23,684 bases of DNA from Periconia sp. R9002 (taxonomy: Eukaryota > Ascomycota > Dothideomycetes > Pleosporales > Periconiaceae), in NCBI GenBank assembly GCA_023627715.1, contig JAMAHW010000180.1:1-23684 (forward strand). The letters run 5' to 3'. The notes below the pieces were generated by a model that was not told where the DNA came from, made no database searches, and saw only the letters and a list, made by a program, of their open reading frames with translations. Positions 367-22,123 of this stretch are shown one piece after another. The translations under genes were made by a program, and so were the position numbers. The first letter of the stretch is position 1. The number at the start of each line of letters is the position of its first letter.

Positions 367-2260
367 CTACCCGTCCGCAGCCGCAACGACAGGCTCAGCA
401 GCCTTGGTGGATGGAGAAGATGGTGTACCTTCTCCCGAGGGAGCAACCTCAGCAGTCGACGCTGCACCCGTGTTCGCTTCATCCGTCTCCGTCGACGGCA
501 CCGTAGTCGAAGATGCAGACGCAGCAGGAGGAGGGGAAGCAGCACCCTTCGCTTCACTCTCAGGTTCCGCGCTCCCCGCAACATTGCCTTCCAGAATGTG
601 CTCGGTAATGTCGTGTCGTCTCCTCGAAGGCGACCTGCTAGGCCGCCGGCCGGGAGATTTGCTGGGCCGTCGCGCGGGGGAATTGCTCTTACCGCGGGAC
701 CGGTTGAGGATGGCGCCGAGGGCCGTGTCCATGACGTTGGTAGCCACGCCGGGCTGCTGCGGCGAGAGTGGACCGCTGCCGGCGTCGGCCGTGTCCGAGG
801 GCGTTTCGGTTGTAGGGACGCCGCCCTCGTCGTCCTCGTCGCTGCTGCTGCTTTCTTCCGAGAGTTCGGGGCTGTCGAGGTTTTGCAGTTCGGGGCTCTT
901 CATGAGCTTGCCTGGGCTCTTGAGGTCGTCTAGGTCTGAGGAAGCGGAGAAGGTTTGCACCAGCGGGCTGAGTGCTTTGACTGATCCCCTCTTCTTTCTT
1001 CTGGGTCTGTAGCCAATTGCTGCTGCCACGGCGGCCGCTTCGTCTTCAGAGGCCTGCAGAGAACTATCTGCATCGAAGGGAACGCTCTCGGCGTCGGGCA
1101 TTGGTCCACTCTTCTCTAGCAAATCCTTGTACGAATGTCTGTTGGGATCCAACGCCCGCTTGTTCCTCGCCTTGTCCCGTTTTGATGAGGGCCGCACAAC
1201 AATGACAGGTACGGGCGAATGCTGGAGGCAATACTTGGACACGGATCCAGGGAGCAAACCTTGGAAGCCGCCCAAACTTCTACCCCGAGTCCCAACCACC
1301 AGAATGGCGGGTTCGTAGAGATTTATCTGCCACACGTCAATACAGTTTAATTTGAGCATTGCAAAAAAAAATCTTACCATTTCATCAATGACCTTGTTCA
1401 CTTTGCCCAGCGCAAACTCCAAAACCAGGTTTATCGCCTTGTTTTCGCGATTCTTCTTCTGGATCATCTTCATGAGATCTTCCGCCTCCTGCCTATACCG
1501 GCCCTTCTCCACGCTGCGCTCTGCCGCAATGGTATCGTCCTTTTCCACAACCCTCAAGCACACGACCTCGTCGCCGTCGTCCACCAATTCGTCAATCAGC
1601 CATTGCAATGCATACTCGGAGTAATCGTTATCGTCGCAGCCGCAGAGAAACGTCCTCGATCGCTTCGTGTACTCATAGTCCTTGTGCTTGGTGACGAGGG
1701 TGAAAGAATTCTCTTCGATGAAATCGGCCGGCTTGTCAAACGTATCGAACGAGACGCGGGGTTGGAACACACTGAGGCACAATTAGTCTGGTTTATACAC
1801 AAGCCATTGGAGGGACGCAAGAGACGGCTCAGGTCTCGTGCTTCGCTCTGAAGAGCTGCCCCGCAGTCGTGTGAGGCATACTCGGACATGACAAAAGTCG
1901 GTGGGAAGAGAATCGAGCGCGCGCGAATGACATGCCGTAGCAGAGGAACGTGTCCCTATATGCTGTTTCGCGTGCTTGCTTACAGCATGCTGCATACAAA
2001 GAAAAGACCATGACTTACGGCGGCGGGGGAGGTGACGATATGCGCCTCCTGGGGCGATGGGCTCTTGGGCTCCCGCGAGGCAGAGAAGGATTCTTATGGG
2101 CGGCGAATTGGATGGAGGGACGACGTTCTTCCTGCTCTCCTTGAGGCGCGGAGGCGAGCAGTGGGTTGGGAGCAACAATAGGCGTCCTGGTGGGCGAGGA
2201 ATAGTGGGTCGCTGGAGAACGACTCCGGTGCGGGCTAGACGGCGTGGGGGAGCGGCTCAT
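367..2260 (-). CDS. Universal stress protein (UspA) domain protein, 3 exons, 531 aa
   Basis: Exons are 2260-2019, 1771-1378 and 1326-367; introns of 247 and 51 nt have GTAAG donors and CAG acceptors, and phases agree throughout. The N-terminal 80 residues are S/P/R-rich (starts MSRSPTPSSPHRSRSP). The USP fold follows at about residues 117-256: strand 1 TFLCGCDDND, then the ATP-type signature GTRGRSLGG..LLPGS at about 224-240 and final strand VPVIVVRP. The rest (about 275 residues) is predicted disordered, acidic, then rich in SP and RS dipeptides (about 440-470). The start is the only ATG in the open first exon and gives a typical fungal N-terminus. Bacterial and plant USPs bind ATP or AMP; the fungal long forms are poorly studied, so a role in stress or nutrient signalling is inference. 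Removing the 51-nt intron restores the continuous INLYEPAILVVGTRG strand. Confidence 0.9.
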
Positions 2261-3436: not shown

Positions 3437-5558
<2,122 letters not shown>

Positions 5559-7854: not shown

Positions 7855-9521
7855 TCAATTCAACTTGCCCATTTCTACATCCCCGTCATCTAATTCATCG
7901 TCGTCCCAGCTCTGTCCCTTGAGCCTCTTTCCAGCCCACAGGCCTACCGTCGTGAGGGCACTTGCCAGCAAGAACCAGCATTCAAACCATCTCTCTGTAA
8001 ACGCCGGCTCCAGCGGCGCCCCAAGAGCGTCCGAGATGGCACTTTTCATTTCCACCGGCAAATTACTCCGTAGTAGGAGTGCCGTGCTGATGACGTAGGT
8101 TGCAGCAATCTGCGATATGATAAGCGCAAAATTAGCGCGTGCATGGTGGAGCAGGCCCGGAAGCACGCGTGCAAAGAGAAAAGATGTCTGCACGACGCTG
8201 TTGAAAGATGCGAACAGCATGATGCCCGAGAGCAGGAAGGAGATGGTACGGCTCCATGCCACGCGATCTATCGTAGGATCCCAGTGTTTTGCGAGAAGCG
8301 CTAGGAAGTTGTTGATGGGGTCCGTGTTGGAAAAACTCGTGTTGGGCGACGAGAAGCGTCGGAGGGTGGTGAATGTCGTCGCCGTGATACGGTACAAGCA
8401 ATAGACGGAGAATGCGAACGAGAACACGTGGAGCAGACGACCATAGGCCGTGTGTGCTCGTAGCTGGGTTTGTCTCCGGGATTGGAGCACTGTGAGAGAG
8501 TTCTGGAGCGTTGTTCGCATGGTCTGCAGACCCTGTATCTCCAGCTGAAGGGTATTGCGCTCCGCTGTATCTGGATTGCCTCGGAGGGTGCCAACCACAC
8601 GAGTCATGAACCCTTCTTGCGGAGTGTCTGATAGCTTCCGATTAATAGCACGCAGTCGACTTTCCTTTGTTAATAACATGTCGTTGGTAGCATCTATGCC
8701 TGCCTGCTTGCGAGCTATGTCCGACTCGGTGACCTAGAAAAAGATCAGCATCGGTGTGATTGTGTTGCCAATACGTGGGCGTTACTCACGGCGCGATATT
8801 TGACCCCAAAAGTCTGCCACAATGAGCTGACTGCGGCAAAGCCAGCAAGTGAGGCCATCAGGCTTATGCCAATGACACCTATCCTCTCCAAACATGCTTC
8901 ACTAAAAGTGTGATCATGCAGGTAAGATTCTTCGTGAAGGTATGATCCCAGAAGTCCTCTCCCCAGATACCAGAATGCAGCAAGCCAAAGTGCAAGACCG
9001 CCAACCTCCAGCAGCCAAGCGATCCTGCGATGCCCTTTCGTGGATCCTTGCAGATTCCAGCCGGCATTGGAAATGACGGAGTGTATAATCAAAGCCGGCG
9101 TCGCGATGATGATGAGGAATAGCAGCGATGGCAATGTGATCCTCAGCGCCAACGCGCGGGTTGCCGGGTTGATCGTATTCGAGATTTCGCATAGGATCAG
9201 CTCAACTAGGACAGCAGAGAGAGCAATATTGGTAGAAAATGTGATGCTGGCGAGCGCACGCGCTCCTATGGGCAGCTTTTTGAGAACAGTTGTCTTTTCG
9301 CGCCACGCGAACCCGCCCAGGTGCGCGCCATCGTGGTGGTTCTTTGTAGATGAAGAAGTCCCCGAGAGCAGCGGGAACAGTTTATGCGATACGGCCACAG
9401 CGACGATAAGGAAAGTGAGGACAAAAGGTAGGGCTGAAATCGCTATCGCAGCGGGTCTACGCTTAACGGCCCACTCCGGGGCGCAAGCATCGCAGTCGTC
9501 GTCTAAGGCAGAAGGAAGCAT
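7855..9521 (-). CDS. Golgi pH regulator / ABA-GPCR family membrane protein, 2 exons, 536 aa
   Basis: Exons are 9521-8790 and 8733-7855, split by a 56-nt GTGAGT...CTAG intron in phase 0 (KYRA | VTESDIARKQ). About nine hydrophobic segments are visible: five in the first 240 residues (first about 24-52, ISALPFVLTFLIVAVAVSHK), then a long charged, coiled-coil-like cytosolic loop (about 245-345, with SRLRAINRKLSDTP), then four more ending with a segment near WFECWFLLASAL and an acidic tail. This matches the GPHR_N plus ABA_GPCR arrangement of about 530 residues. Animal GPHR is a Golgi anion channel needed for acidification, and plant GTG1/2 are homologues; the substrate in fungi is inferred. The start is the first ATG and leaves a short acidic N-terminus with two cysteines (DDDCDACAPEW). 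Confidence 0.88.
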
Positions 9522-10085
9522 AGGTTCAGCTTAGTTGCGTAGTTGGAAGAGGCGTAGGAGCTTATGGAGTATCACTCGGATGAGTCGAGAATGTTGAACG
9601 CGCGGCCATGCATTTGTCGGCATGCGCTGGCTCAAATAACATGACAACAGCCGCAAAGGTGGAAACTAAATAGTGCTGAGGGTGAGATGGTTCACGTAAA
9701 GAGCATCAGCAGATGTTGGTGGGTGTTTCGGACCACGTTGCCAAGCTCCCACCCCACGCTTTCTCAAACGTCATTTCCCAGGGCAGCGTCGATCCGCACA
9801 AGGGTGCAGCTTCACGATGCTCAATTGACTCGGGCCAAAGCACTAGAAGAATCAACGACTAGAATTAGTACATAGATCTAGAGATAGTAGATTACCGGCG
9901 CGCTAGGTATGGAGAATAGATCCAATACGAAAATCACCGTCTGCCAAGATAAAATAAGCTTCACGCATTGTACAGAAGTATCAACCTCGTTGAGCATGGA
10001 TAATGCCAGCAGCCGGTAATGAGCCGTTGTATTATCTATCAATAGACTGACAAACAAATGAGGCGATACACTCCAGCCTCGCACT
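9522..10085. other. Intergenic: GPHR promoter and zuotin 3' UTR
   Basis: 564 bases between two minus-strand genes. It should contain the promoter of the membrane-protein gene and the 3' UTR of zuotin. I see no credible ORF, tRNA or repeat; the open frame at 9687-9875 has no coding features. Confidence 0.5.
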
Positions 10086-11472
10086 CTAAGAAAGGGATTT
10101 GAGTTCGCCCTCCTGGGCCTTTCCGGAAGCAACTAAGCTCTTCACTTCATCCTGGAAGACCTGCTTGATGCTGGCGGCATCCTTCTTGCCATTGAGTTTG
10201 GCAGTGAGCGCTGCAATCTGTTCGTTGTCGAGCTTCACAATGATGGCGTCGACATCGTTGAGGGCGGCATCAATCTGCGAGGGAGAGGCATCCCCGGAAA
10301 CGAAGTAGTTCCCGTCCTTGACAGCCGCACGAATGACTCGCTTGTTCTTCTTTGCAGCATTCTTTGCGGCTTCTTTGGCCTTTTTGCCTTCAGCTTTCTC
10401 AGCCTTCTCCGCGGCCTCCTTCTCCGCTTGCAGCCTTGCCTCCTCCTCTTTGGCCTTAGCAGCCTCCTCGGCGGCGCGCTTCAGCTCAGCCTCCTTTTCG
10501 AGACGGCGCTTGTTCTTCTGAGCATTCTCGGCTTGGCGGAATTTCTTGATGCGCTCGTCCAAAGCCAAGCAGTCATCAACTAGCTTCCTCAGGCGGGCGG
10601 TATCCTCGGTCTTCTTCTTGCGGCGTGCATTCTGGTTCTTGCGCTCGACGTGACGTTTCTGATCACGATTCTCGTTGTCATCGGGCACATCCTCATCCAG
10701 ATACTCGAATGTCCTCCAGCTGTCAAAGTTGTACCAGAAATTGTAGAAGTTCTCGACCTCCTCTTTGGTGCTCTTTTCGTTTCCGAGCTTCGGCACGGGC
10801 TGATTGTTGGAGAAGCGACCTTCCGACTCGAAAACTCTGCCCCACAGCTTGTAGAAGTTACCCTTTTGTGACTCCTTCTTGGAAGGTGGTTCGACGTCTG
10901 CAGCCTCATCGACGGAATCAAACTGGCGCCTCTTGACGGGGTCAAGTAGAACCTCGGTTGCCTTTTGGATGCACTTGAAGAACTGGTCATCTTCGGTTCC
11001 ACCCTTGGCAGCCTTCTTGTCGGGGTGATGCTTGAGCACCTTCTTGCGGTGCGCCTTCTTAATCTGATCCTCAGTTGCGCGCCAGCGGTACTTTGAAATG
11101 CCCAGAACAGCGTAGTGATCCTGACCCTTCCAGTCCTTGGCCTCACGCTGTAGCATCAGAGGGTCCTCAGGCTCACTGATCTCGCCATCATCCTCATCTT
11201 CGACCTTCTTGACATTGGCCTGGGCCTGGATACGATCGTCCTCGGAGAAAGTACGTTTATGGCGTTTCTGTGATACTGCAATTAGCAACTATGCTGTAGC
11301 GTGTAGAAACTATTGAACATACCCTGCGTGCATGTGCGAGGAAATGGTGCCCCACGGGCTCGATGTTGCGGTCATTGGCAGCGCTGAGGCTACCGATGGG
11401 CTTGAAGTCCTTTTCAGCAGTCCAGCCCTGAGGCAGGACAGGCAAAGGCAAAGAAATCTGTACGGTGGCCAT
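10086..11472 (-). CDS. zuo1: Zuotin, ribosome-associated J-protein (Hsp40), 2 exons, 443 aa
   Basis: Exons are 11472-11323 and 11267-10086 with a 55-nt GTATGT...CACAG intron (branch GCTAAT) in phase 0, giving HARRKRHKRTFSEDDR across the join. An earlier AG in the intron would break the frame. The J domain spans about 98-170 with the HPD triad in KHHPDKK (131-133), then the zuotin homology region (FYKLWGRVFESEGRFS, ENFYNFWYNFDSWRTFEYLDED), then a long K/E/A-rich charged helix (about 300-365) that contacts ribosomal RNA, then a C-terminal helical domain. Length is close to yeast Zuo1 (433). With the Hsp70-like Ssz1 it forms the RAC complex, which activates Ssb at the ribosome exit tunnel. It is divergently arranged with the golgin gene. 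Confidence 0.94.
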
Positions 11473-19851: not shown

Positions 19852-19859
19852 AAAAAAAA
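19852..19859 (-). terminator. RNA polymerase III terminator (T8)
   Basis: Eight consecutive T residues on the minus strand begin 4 bases past the tRNA discriminator base. This is a strong Pol III termination signal. No run of four or more T occurs inside the tRNA gene or its two insertions. Confidence 0.85.
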
Positions 19860-19863
19860 GTTT

Positions 19864-20005
19864 TGGACGCTGTGGGAATTGAACCCACGACCACTCACAT
19901 TCTGCATTCGAATTATGCGAAGCGAGTATCATCTAGATAACTGTTAATTGCTGAACTTGTTGAACCCAAGATTGGTTTGTACTTACACCCCTAGACCAAG
20001 CGCCC
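19864..20005 (-). tRNA. tRNA-Ala(CGC) with a 16-nt canonical intron and a 54-nt D-loop insertion
   Basis: Read on the minus strand: acceptor GGGCGCT (20005-19999) pairs with AGCGTCC (19871-19865) using one G:U at 3:70, the alanine identity element, with discriminator A at 19864. TG, D-stem GTC and D-loop TAGGGGT follow; after a 54-nt insertion (19986-19933) the loop ends AT and the stem closes with GAT. Anticodon stem CTCGC/GTGAG encloses TTCGCA, a 16-nt intron after position 37, then T38. Anticodon CGC reads GCG (Ala). The variable loop is TGGTC; the T-arm is GTGGG-TTCAATT-CCCAC. A box TGGTCTAGGGG and B box GGTTCAATTCC are intact. An AT-rich TATA-like stretch lies at 20034-20050, just upstream. 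All standard stems form, so only the D-loop insertion argues against function. Confidence 0.85.
19933..19986 (-). other. 54-nt spliceosomal-intron-like insertion in the tRNA D-loop
   Basis: It begins GTAAGT, ends CTAG, and contains ATTAACA about 11-14 nt before its 3' end, resembling a branch site. Its length matches the 49-56 nt introns of the protein genes in this window. Removing it exactly restores a normal D-loop (TAGGGGTAT). It contains a small hairpin, CTTG...CAAG. TCTAG occurs both just left of the D-loop G-run and at the right end of the insertion, so a duplication of target bases is possible but the boundaries would then not restore G18-G19. Confidence 0.7.
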
Positions 20006-22123
20006 TTGGTTGAATTGATGAAAGCTGTGGTTACAAAAAAATATATAAAGGAATTAAATGTGCTAAGACGCTTAGAAGAGGGGCACAGTGGGATGATGGT
20101 TTGATTGGTTAGATGGATGGTTGGGTTTCTTTGAATTGAATTGTGGGCCAGTGATGGGTGAGCGGCGCCCAACTGACCCGGCGGCCATCGTGGCCTGTAA
20201 TTCGGCGAATCAGAATCAAAGCACAGCGCAAGAGGTTCTGGAGCATTATCCGCACATCTACGAATTGAAACCTTCAAAGGTAACCATGAAACAATCACCC
20301 AACCTCGTAACTGCGCCATGTATTCTATCACGCGTGGGTTGATATATCTATCCTACACTCCCAATACATCACCAGGGGCATTTTCTCGTATACCGTTATT
20401 TTCAGAGATATCAATTCTCAGTATTCATTTTTCCGCTATCGTGAAACCGCAAAACTATTAGAGCGACGTATGTACATGATCACATTTTTCTGTTTGCTTG
20501 ATGCCTCGAGTCCATAACATGCATGAATTCTTTAGGCGCGCATATGTTTAATTCTACCCGTTCAAGATCCGTTTCTCATTCATCCATCATTGTCTCCGCC
20601 CTCAATGGTCATCATCCCATCTCATCCCCACGCGGCGGCGCAGTGCATAGAACCAGACCAGAACACAACCGACAAGCGAACACGGGGCGCGCCATTAGTA
20701 ACACAGACTAAGCTTCTTCCACAATAGCGAATGATATGACATGACACGATGTCACAAGTCGTTAAAGGAAGTCCGCTGGGCGCTCGGACCGGTATCTCGT
20801 ACCGAGTCTGGATGCGGTTATGCTTAAGTTAATGTGGCGGGCATTGCAGAAGGGCGCGTTCTTGATGGCATCAGCTAACTATTTTTACAAGCTTGAAGTT
20901 GTGAGACCGATAATTAATCAGACAGAACAACCTAAGTCAGTGAGTGGAGAGACGTGTGGTATCACGAGCGTGTCGCATATATTGCTTTGTTGAAGTTGTG
21001 CACCTCTCGCAATCATAAACCTCGCGGAAACTAGCCCTGGCCCCTCGATAGCGGAGTTGGACCTGAGCGGGCGCCGGAGACACGAAGGCACAAAGTTTCA
21101 GGGGCTGATGAGCTGATGGATTCGAGGACTTTTAGCGCCGCGCCGCAAAGTCAGCCCTGGATCTTCTCCAAGGGGCACAAGCGAATCATTTGCAAGCAGG
21201 GGGACCCGATTGGCAGGCCTGCGTTTCCCTTTTTCCAACGTCTGCGTGATTTTGCTGGGGGTGCGGTTTATTTATATGGATGGGGGGTTCTCCCGTTGTT
21301 TTGGGTCGGTTCTCGATCTTTCTTTCGCTTTGGTTTTGTTTCTTTCGGTTTTTGTTGCGTTGAGACTTCGAAGACGCAGTCGCTCACCTTTGCATCGCCA
21401 TTTTGGACGTCTAGTGACGAAGAAAAAGACAAAAAAAGAGAGGAATACCTATTGAAAATATCCAGCTATCCGCGCACGAATACGGCGACATTTGGACGCA
21501 TTTTTTCTGGCCTTGTTTGCTTGGTATTCTGGGGTTCGACCGCACTGGTTCTCCGCCCTGCTCCCGAATTGTGGAGTCCTTCATCTCCGTGTTACGCCCT
21601 GTTACCTATATCCTCGAAGAGCGAAGAAAACAGCAGCCTAAACCATAAGGCGAAAATCCCGACATCTCGGAGGATCGAGTAATCGCATGACACAGCAGTG
21701 CTTGCCAATAAGAACGAGCAACGCAATTCATAATAATTTTATGTTGAAATAACAAGTGGGCTCAAGGAACAAAGGCGCAAGACAGAAAGGAGCAGCAGAA
21801 CCTAATCTAGGGGTTTGTCTCTTGTGCGAGTGAGGCTTGATCACTGGGAGTGACTGCCGTATCGGATCGTGGTAACGGAGTGACACAATACGGACACAGT
21901 CATCACAAGCTACATTGAGTAAAACACGGGTATAAAGAACATCACAAGAGACGAAACAATCGGCTAGGAAACAACAAGTGAGGGAAAGAAAGTGACCAAG
22001 AATACTGGAGCCTTCCCTATAAACGGGGCCGACAGCACACAACACGATTCCTCGATCGTACGACCTTTATCTTCCAGTCCACACCAACCACCCGACCCAA
22101 CAAAAACTCTACCCCCTACGAAG
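20006..22123. other. Intergenic interval between tRNA and secreted-protein gene
   Basis: Mostly nothing recognisable. A 188-codon plus-strand frame at 21116-21682 is the longest, but has mixed codon choice, a T-rich low-complexity middle and no family resemblance, so it is not called as a gene. A small dyad CGGTA-TCTCG-TACCG lies near 20790. The last 200 bases form the promoter of the secreted-protein gene. Confidence 0.45.
21931..21937 (+). promoter_or_regulatory. TATA box (TATAAAG)
   Basis: GGGTATAAAGAAC lies 190 bases upstream of the ATG at 22124 and is the best TATA match there. It would imply a 5' UTR of about 160 nt. Confidence 0.4.

Follow-up and report, generated by a model that had tools for sequence, protein, structure and literature searches.

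The introns of nuclear tRNAs are regarded as the task of the tRNA endonuclease, and the 18S rRNA gene is transcribed by Pol I. Introns of messenger type have been described in several RNA genes of fungi. The U6 snRNA gene of Schizosaccharomyces pombe has an mRNA-type intron in a Pol III transcript, which is removed by the spliceosome (PMC8917221). Our case would be similar in both respects, a Pol III transcript and a spliceosomal intron, but U6 is a snRNA and not a tRNA. The U3 genes of fungi have introns with GTRWGT, RCTRAY and YAG signals, a mean distance of 15 nt from branch to acceptor and an average length of 92 nt; intron-bearing and intronless paralogs may be found in one genome (PMC5832005). 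The tRNA inserts which we describe below have the same splice signals and also coexist with an uninterrupted paralog, whereas U3 is a snoRNA and its average intron is longer. According to the same source, no small structured RNAs other than U3 and U6 were known in 2017 to have introns often. A messenger RNA intron has also been reported in the nuclear 18S rDNA of deuteromycetes, in a title cited in PMC11782384: it is an mRNA-type intron in a structural RNA gene of a fungus, but in a rRNA gene rather than in a tRNA gene with its internal promoter.

Atypical introns of tRNA genes are found in algae. In Cyanidioschyzon merolae the D-, anticodon- and T-arms have introns with bulge-helix-bulge motifs (PMC9602550). 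As in our case, a tRNA gene may have several introns, at sites such as 53/54, but they have bulge-helix-bulge motifs, while here we find GT, branch and AG signals and, in a weak test, no such motif. The nucleomorph of Guillardia theta also has ectopic tRNA introns, many of them without a defined bulge-helix-bulge (PMC3978253); they are similar to ours in being away from the usual site and different in belonging to an algal nucleomorph. Searches of the open-licence PMC literature gave no paper which reports spliceosomal tRNA introns in its title or at the beginning of its abstract, and exact phrases for such introns gave none either; preprints and most subscription papers lie outside this scope, which is therefore no proof of absence.

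The window, which is the whole stretch of DNA analysed, has 23,684 bases and corresponds to the entire contig C180 of Periconia sp. R9002, in an assembly of 42.9 Mb with 267 contigs. Its features are given in Table 1. Pfam left two of the seven stretches scanned in the window without any match.

Table 1. Position of the tRNA-Ala(CGC) gene, its parts and the protein genes in the window
Feature	Position	Strand	Basis
tRNA-Ala(CGC) gene, unspliced precursor of 142 nt	19864..20005	(-)	sequence reading; sole copy found in assembly
Exon 1, nucleotides 1-20 (acceptor 5' strand, A box, G18G19)	19987..20005	(-)	sequence reading
A box TGGTCTAGGGG	19998-19988	(-)	in exon 1
54-nt spliceosomal-type intron at nucleotides 20/21, GTAAGT...TTAAC...CTAG; sequence GTAAGTACAAACCAATCTTGGGTTCAACAAGTTCAGCAATTAACAGTTATCTAG (19986-19933)	19933..19986	(-)	sequence reading and splice test
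Branch-point-like motif TTAAC, 15 nt before the 3' end of the insert	19943..19947	(-)	motif scan
Exon 2, nucleotides 21-37, anticodon CGC	19916..19932	(-)	sequence reading
Second intron, about 16 nt, canonical 37/38 site	19900..19915, +-1 nt	(-)	ARAGORN i(38,16) after removal of the 54 nt
Exon 3, nucleotides 38-73 (T arm, acceptor 3' strand, A73)	19864..19899	(-)	sequence reading
Exonic B box GGTTCAATTCC, intact	19875..19885	(-)	box scan
T8 run, Pol III terminator-like	19852..19859	(-)	sequence reading
Upstream TATATA, at -42	20042..20047	(-)	sequence reading
Usp domain protein gene	367-1782	(-)	Pfam
Protein kinase gene	4240-5247	(-)	Pfam
ABA_GPCR + GPHR_N protein gene (Golgi pH regulator type)	7855-9530	(-)	Pfam
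Zuotin-like DnaJ protein gene with RAC head domain	10086-11288	(-)	Pfam

The tRNA-Ala(CGC) gene is interrupted twice, at 20/21 and at 37/38, and its two introns differ in kind. An initial annotation had described a tRNA-Ala on the minus strand with a 54-nt insert in its D-loop, and our reading of the sequence agrees with it. The boundaries are exact: they cannot slide, since exon 1 ends in T, the insert starts and ends with G and exon 2 starts with A. When the insert is removed the D arm is as long as in the genome's Ala(AGC) genes, and 20 of the 21 pairs of the cloverleaf are formed. The exception, T13-T22, does not pair in several more tRNAs of the genome either, including Val and Asp. The alanine identity elements G3:U70 and A73 are both present. 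The same annotation considered the tRNA complete once the 54 nt were taken out, but the second intron, which had been overlooked, has to be removed as well. The unspliced gene is missed by ARAGORN, and by Rfam at the gathering score. If ARAGORN is allowed introns of up to 200 nt it does call an Ala(cgc) tRNA, but with a single wrong intron of 51 nt.

Five other tRNA genes have inserts of the same kind, so that the description of the Ala insert as spliceosomal in type and similar in size to the introns of protein genes has gained further examples. The Arg(CCT) gene (L055) is interrupted at 53/54 by 50 nt, GTAAGT...CTAAC...AAG. Two Lys(CTT) genes (L058, L059) have 59-nt inserts at 57/58; like the Arg insert they were found with ARAGORN and reading by eye. 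A search with the T-loop junction pattern GGTTCRGTANGT gave 28 matches; four of them are tRNA genes, all Lys, which adds L069 and L071. ARAGORN labels several of the interrupted Lys genes as Glu(ctc), while the anticodon stem read by eye gives Lys(CTT). Arg and Lys inserts can slide by one base, and we have chosen the register GT...AG. All six inserts start with GTRNGT (five GTAAGT and one GTACGT), have a YTRAY branch motif 14-15 nt before their 3' end and finish in AG, which is YAG in five cases and AAG in Arg. In Ala the branch motif reads TTAAC instead of CTAAC. Insert lengths are 50-59 nt, as compared with 49-56 nt in five introns of protein genes of the window, marked by eye. In four of these five introns splicing leaves the frame open, in one case with a revised boundary; the fifth one, near the end of a gene, did not pass a short frame check. 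The signature is not universal in this DNA, since strict GTRNGT starts only two of the five protein introns.

The combination of these signals is rare. Among 3,000,000 random genomic segments of 50-59 nt, GTRNGT, the branch motif and AG are found together in 65, a chance of 2.2e-5 per insert, uncorrected for the fact that the Ala site was picked by eye. For the three families the joint chance is about 4e-14, allowing two registers for Arg and Lys and uncorrected for how the families were found. In a splice test we removed every GTRNGT...YTRAY...AG segment of 45-70 nt and then applied ARAGORN. The DNA used amounts to 532,296 bases, on both strands, in overlapping loci from which three duplicates of the window had been left out. 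There were 211 candidates, and a tRNA spanning the junction was obtained 12 times, always at the six genes, some of them present in duplicate loci. Three shuffled sets, in steps of two bases, gave no tRNA in 241, 217 and 216 candidates. This DNA had been chosen for its matches to tRNAs or junctions, so the test shows specificity and not the number of such genes in the genome. An assembly error is unlikely, because the six genes are found on five contigs.

These observations lead us to consider it very probable that the 54-nt segment is a spliceosomal intron of the U2 type in a functional tRNA-Ala(CGC) gene transcribed by Pol III, which would be one of a small set of Ala, Arg and Lys genes. The inserts might instead be ectopic introns of the red algal or archaeal type, cut at a bulge-helix-bulge by the tRNA splicing endonuclease, with GT...AG ends due to chance. 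Such sites have precedents in C. merolae, where permuted-gene junctions are found at 20/21 (PMC3978253) and a tRNA-Ile has an intron at 53/54 (PMC9602550). However the splice signature is present in six out of six inserts, which is hard to reconcile with chance ends. The motif has a 4-bp helix between two bulges of 3 nt, and at the inserts this central helix has only 0-2 of its four positions paired, in a test which is weak: no more than 2 of 34 ordinary 37/38 introns used as controls reach four out of four. Furthermore the yeast endonuclease is described in a review as cutting 37/38 introns only (PMC4033280), while the inserts lie at 20/21, 53/54 and 57/58; it is the separate 37/38 introns of these genes which fit that description. 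We judge an origin of this type very unlikely.

The genome search with the Rfam tRNA family gave at least 61 matches; 14 of those listed are on contig C137, which carries mitochondrial-type tRNAs. By hand we count 68 nuclear genes: 46 listed by Rfam, the window gene, two Lys, four Asp, four Phe and 11 found with a D-arm pattern. From the 47 nuclear Rfam matches we have removed L056, since ARAGORN reads no tRNA in it. This locus (C19:499873-500143) scores 42.7 bits with Rfam, lies in AT-rich DNA and is perhaps a decayed tRNA copy. A Ser gene cut by the end of its contig (L057) is included in the count. Inserts of 50-59 nt with spliceosomal form outside the anticodon loop are found in 6 of the 68 genes; Tyr, Cys, Glu, elongator Met and others are missing from this set, which makes 68 a minimum, and the fraction is not a genome-wide rate. 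In the other 62 genes no insert of this kind was seen. This is the case, for example, for Asp (four genes), Phe (four), Pro (six), Val(CAC) (two), Arg(CCG), Trp and His. Two of the Phe genes (L101/L102, C35:11835-12242) are 389 bases apart and identical over the stretch compared, apparently a recent tandem duplication.

Several patterns were used to look for additional genes. The D-arm pattern is found in 40 places; 16 were read and correspond to 11 tRNA genes and five places which are not tRNA genes, while seven were already known. ARAGORN reads two of the 11 as Gly and Ser, but by eye they are Arg(CCG) and Trp. Further D-loop introns were searched for as an A box with GTANGT: there are six matches, and at the four which were read, out of five outside the window, ARAGORN finds no tRNA. 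The pattern CTAAC...AGTTCGANTCC has seven matches; one is Arg(CCT), three belong to a Pol III-like RNA on contig C12 and one more, which was read, has no tRNA. GTANGT...GTTCGANTC has 33 matches; those which we could assign are the four Lys genes and a site on C137. Of ten tRNA sequences also used as queries, Asp alone gave a match, even though genes for Phe, Pro and Trp are present; imperfect DNA queries therefore miss genes.

The sequences on contig C12 (L107, L108 and L109, near 458,700, 488,300 and 553,200) are three copies of what is apparently a Pol III-type RNA gene. They have a TATA-like sequence upstream, a hairpin GGCCATAGGAG/CTCCTATGGCC, a B box GTTCGAATCC and a T run at their end. 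Immediately before the B box there is a sequence GCTAAC...ACAG, which resembles the 3' end of an intron. Rfam gives nothing for them up to E = 1, and ARAGORN reads no tRNA.

The Lys(CTT) family allows a comparison of interrupted and uninterrupted genes. A D-arm search with up to two mismatches gives five nuclear genes; four have the insert at 57/58 and the fifth one (L031) is a paralog with an empty site, exactly without the insert. All 73 mature nucleotides are identical in the five genes. The mean identity falls to 61% in the four T-loop introns, 39% in the 100 bases upstream and 42% in the 60 bases downstream. The interrupted genes in general have the features of Pol III tRNA genes: A box, B box, T run and a cloverleaf, which is obtained only when the insert is excised exactly. 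They look functional, because dead copies would not keep their exons and splice signals while the rest drifts. As a separate observation, the 37/38 introns of the Lys(CTT) genes (loci L031, L069, L071, L072 and L085) have a mean identity of 91% as compared with these flanks, an indication that this intron is under constraint.

The same data bear on the possibility that the insertions killed the genes, which would then be disrupted pseudogenes. Wobble reading may make both Ala(CGC) and Arg(CCT) dispensable, so that these two could be recent casualties. Such a fate is difficult to reconcile with the four interrupted Lys genes, where the mature sequence is unchanged while introns and flanks have diverged, with the splice signals and a B box preserved inside inserts, or with the intact cloverleaves, A boxes and T runs. 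An intact Ala(CGC) copy elsewhere, which the initial annotation had named, together with a lack of spliced RNA, as the result that would speak for a pseudogene, was looked for in the 42.9-Mb assembly with the mature sequence and was not found. Used as queries by themselves, the mature sequences of Ala(CGC) and Arg(CCT) find no genes other than the interrupted ones: an identical uninterrupted copy of either should have shown up, a diverged one perhaps not. We consider that pseudogenes are unlikely.

A third possibility is that a mobile family of introns has landed in tRNA genes. Dothideomycetes do harbour introner-like elements (PMC4457414), and this origin had been proposed for the Ala insert. 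Our results do not favour it: a 25-nt core of this insert, the one used as a query, is found just once in 42.9 Mb with up to three mismatches. When inserts of different families are compared, one pair out of nine (Ala and L069) reaches p 0.006, which is not significant after correction, and Ala and Arg are not significantly alike. Lys inserts do resemble each other, but all of them lie at one site of a single gene family. An introner has near-identical copies at many unrelated sites, and for the Ala insert we reject it; for the whole set we find it very unlikely. A single ancestor for the inserts of the three families was also considered and is not supported by these comparisons.

As regards the internal promoter, the exonic B box of the Lys genes (GGTTCG|ACCCC) is split by the insert. 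All four Lys introns have an invariant sequence of 9 nt, GTTCGAATC, and no longer invariant run is present within their alignment (permutation p 3e-5). The interrupted Lys precursors have no other match to the core of the B box (GTTCRANNC), and this one lies 109-112 nt from the A box. In the uninterrupted Lys gene the core is in the exon, and so it is in Ala(CGC), whose exonic box is left whole by the insert. The Arg(CCT) insert contributes its last G to a B box which spans the 3' junction (AGTTCGAGTCC). No full B-box core was found inside the Ala or Arg inserts. From these features we infer that the intronic GTTCGAATC most likely replaces the broken exonic B box of the Lys genes as a TFIIIC site; the intron would thus be a part of the promoter. 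An exact loss of the intron, which would give a gene like L031, would restore the exonic B box.

The expression of these genes may be envisaged as follows. Pol III would use the split internal promoter to make the precursor, the nuclear spliceosome would remove the extra insert, as it does in fission yeast U6 and fungal U3, and the Sen endonuclease would remove the separate 37/38 intron where it is present. The tRNA endonuclease is thought to recognise the folded body of the tRNA, so the spliceosome would probably act before it.

It is likely that these genes represent a new class of tRNA introns, in which nuclear tRNA genes carry introns of the spliceosomal kind. In Lys(CTT) the intron would supply the B box which it interrupts, and the spliceosome would be needed for most of the tRNA which decodes AAG. 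Since the interrupted genes are missed or misread by the tRNA finders that we used, the fungi affected could seem to be without some tRNA genes. If our interpretation is correct, spliceosomal tRNA introns would tie the spliceosome directly to translation, two splicing machineries would act on one small precursor, and a promoter element would be carried within a removable intron.
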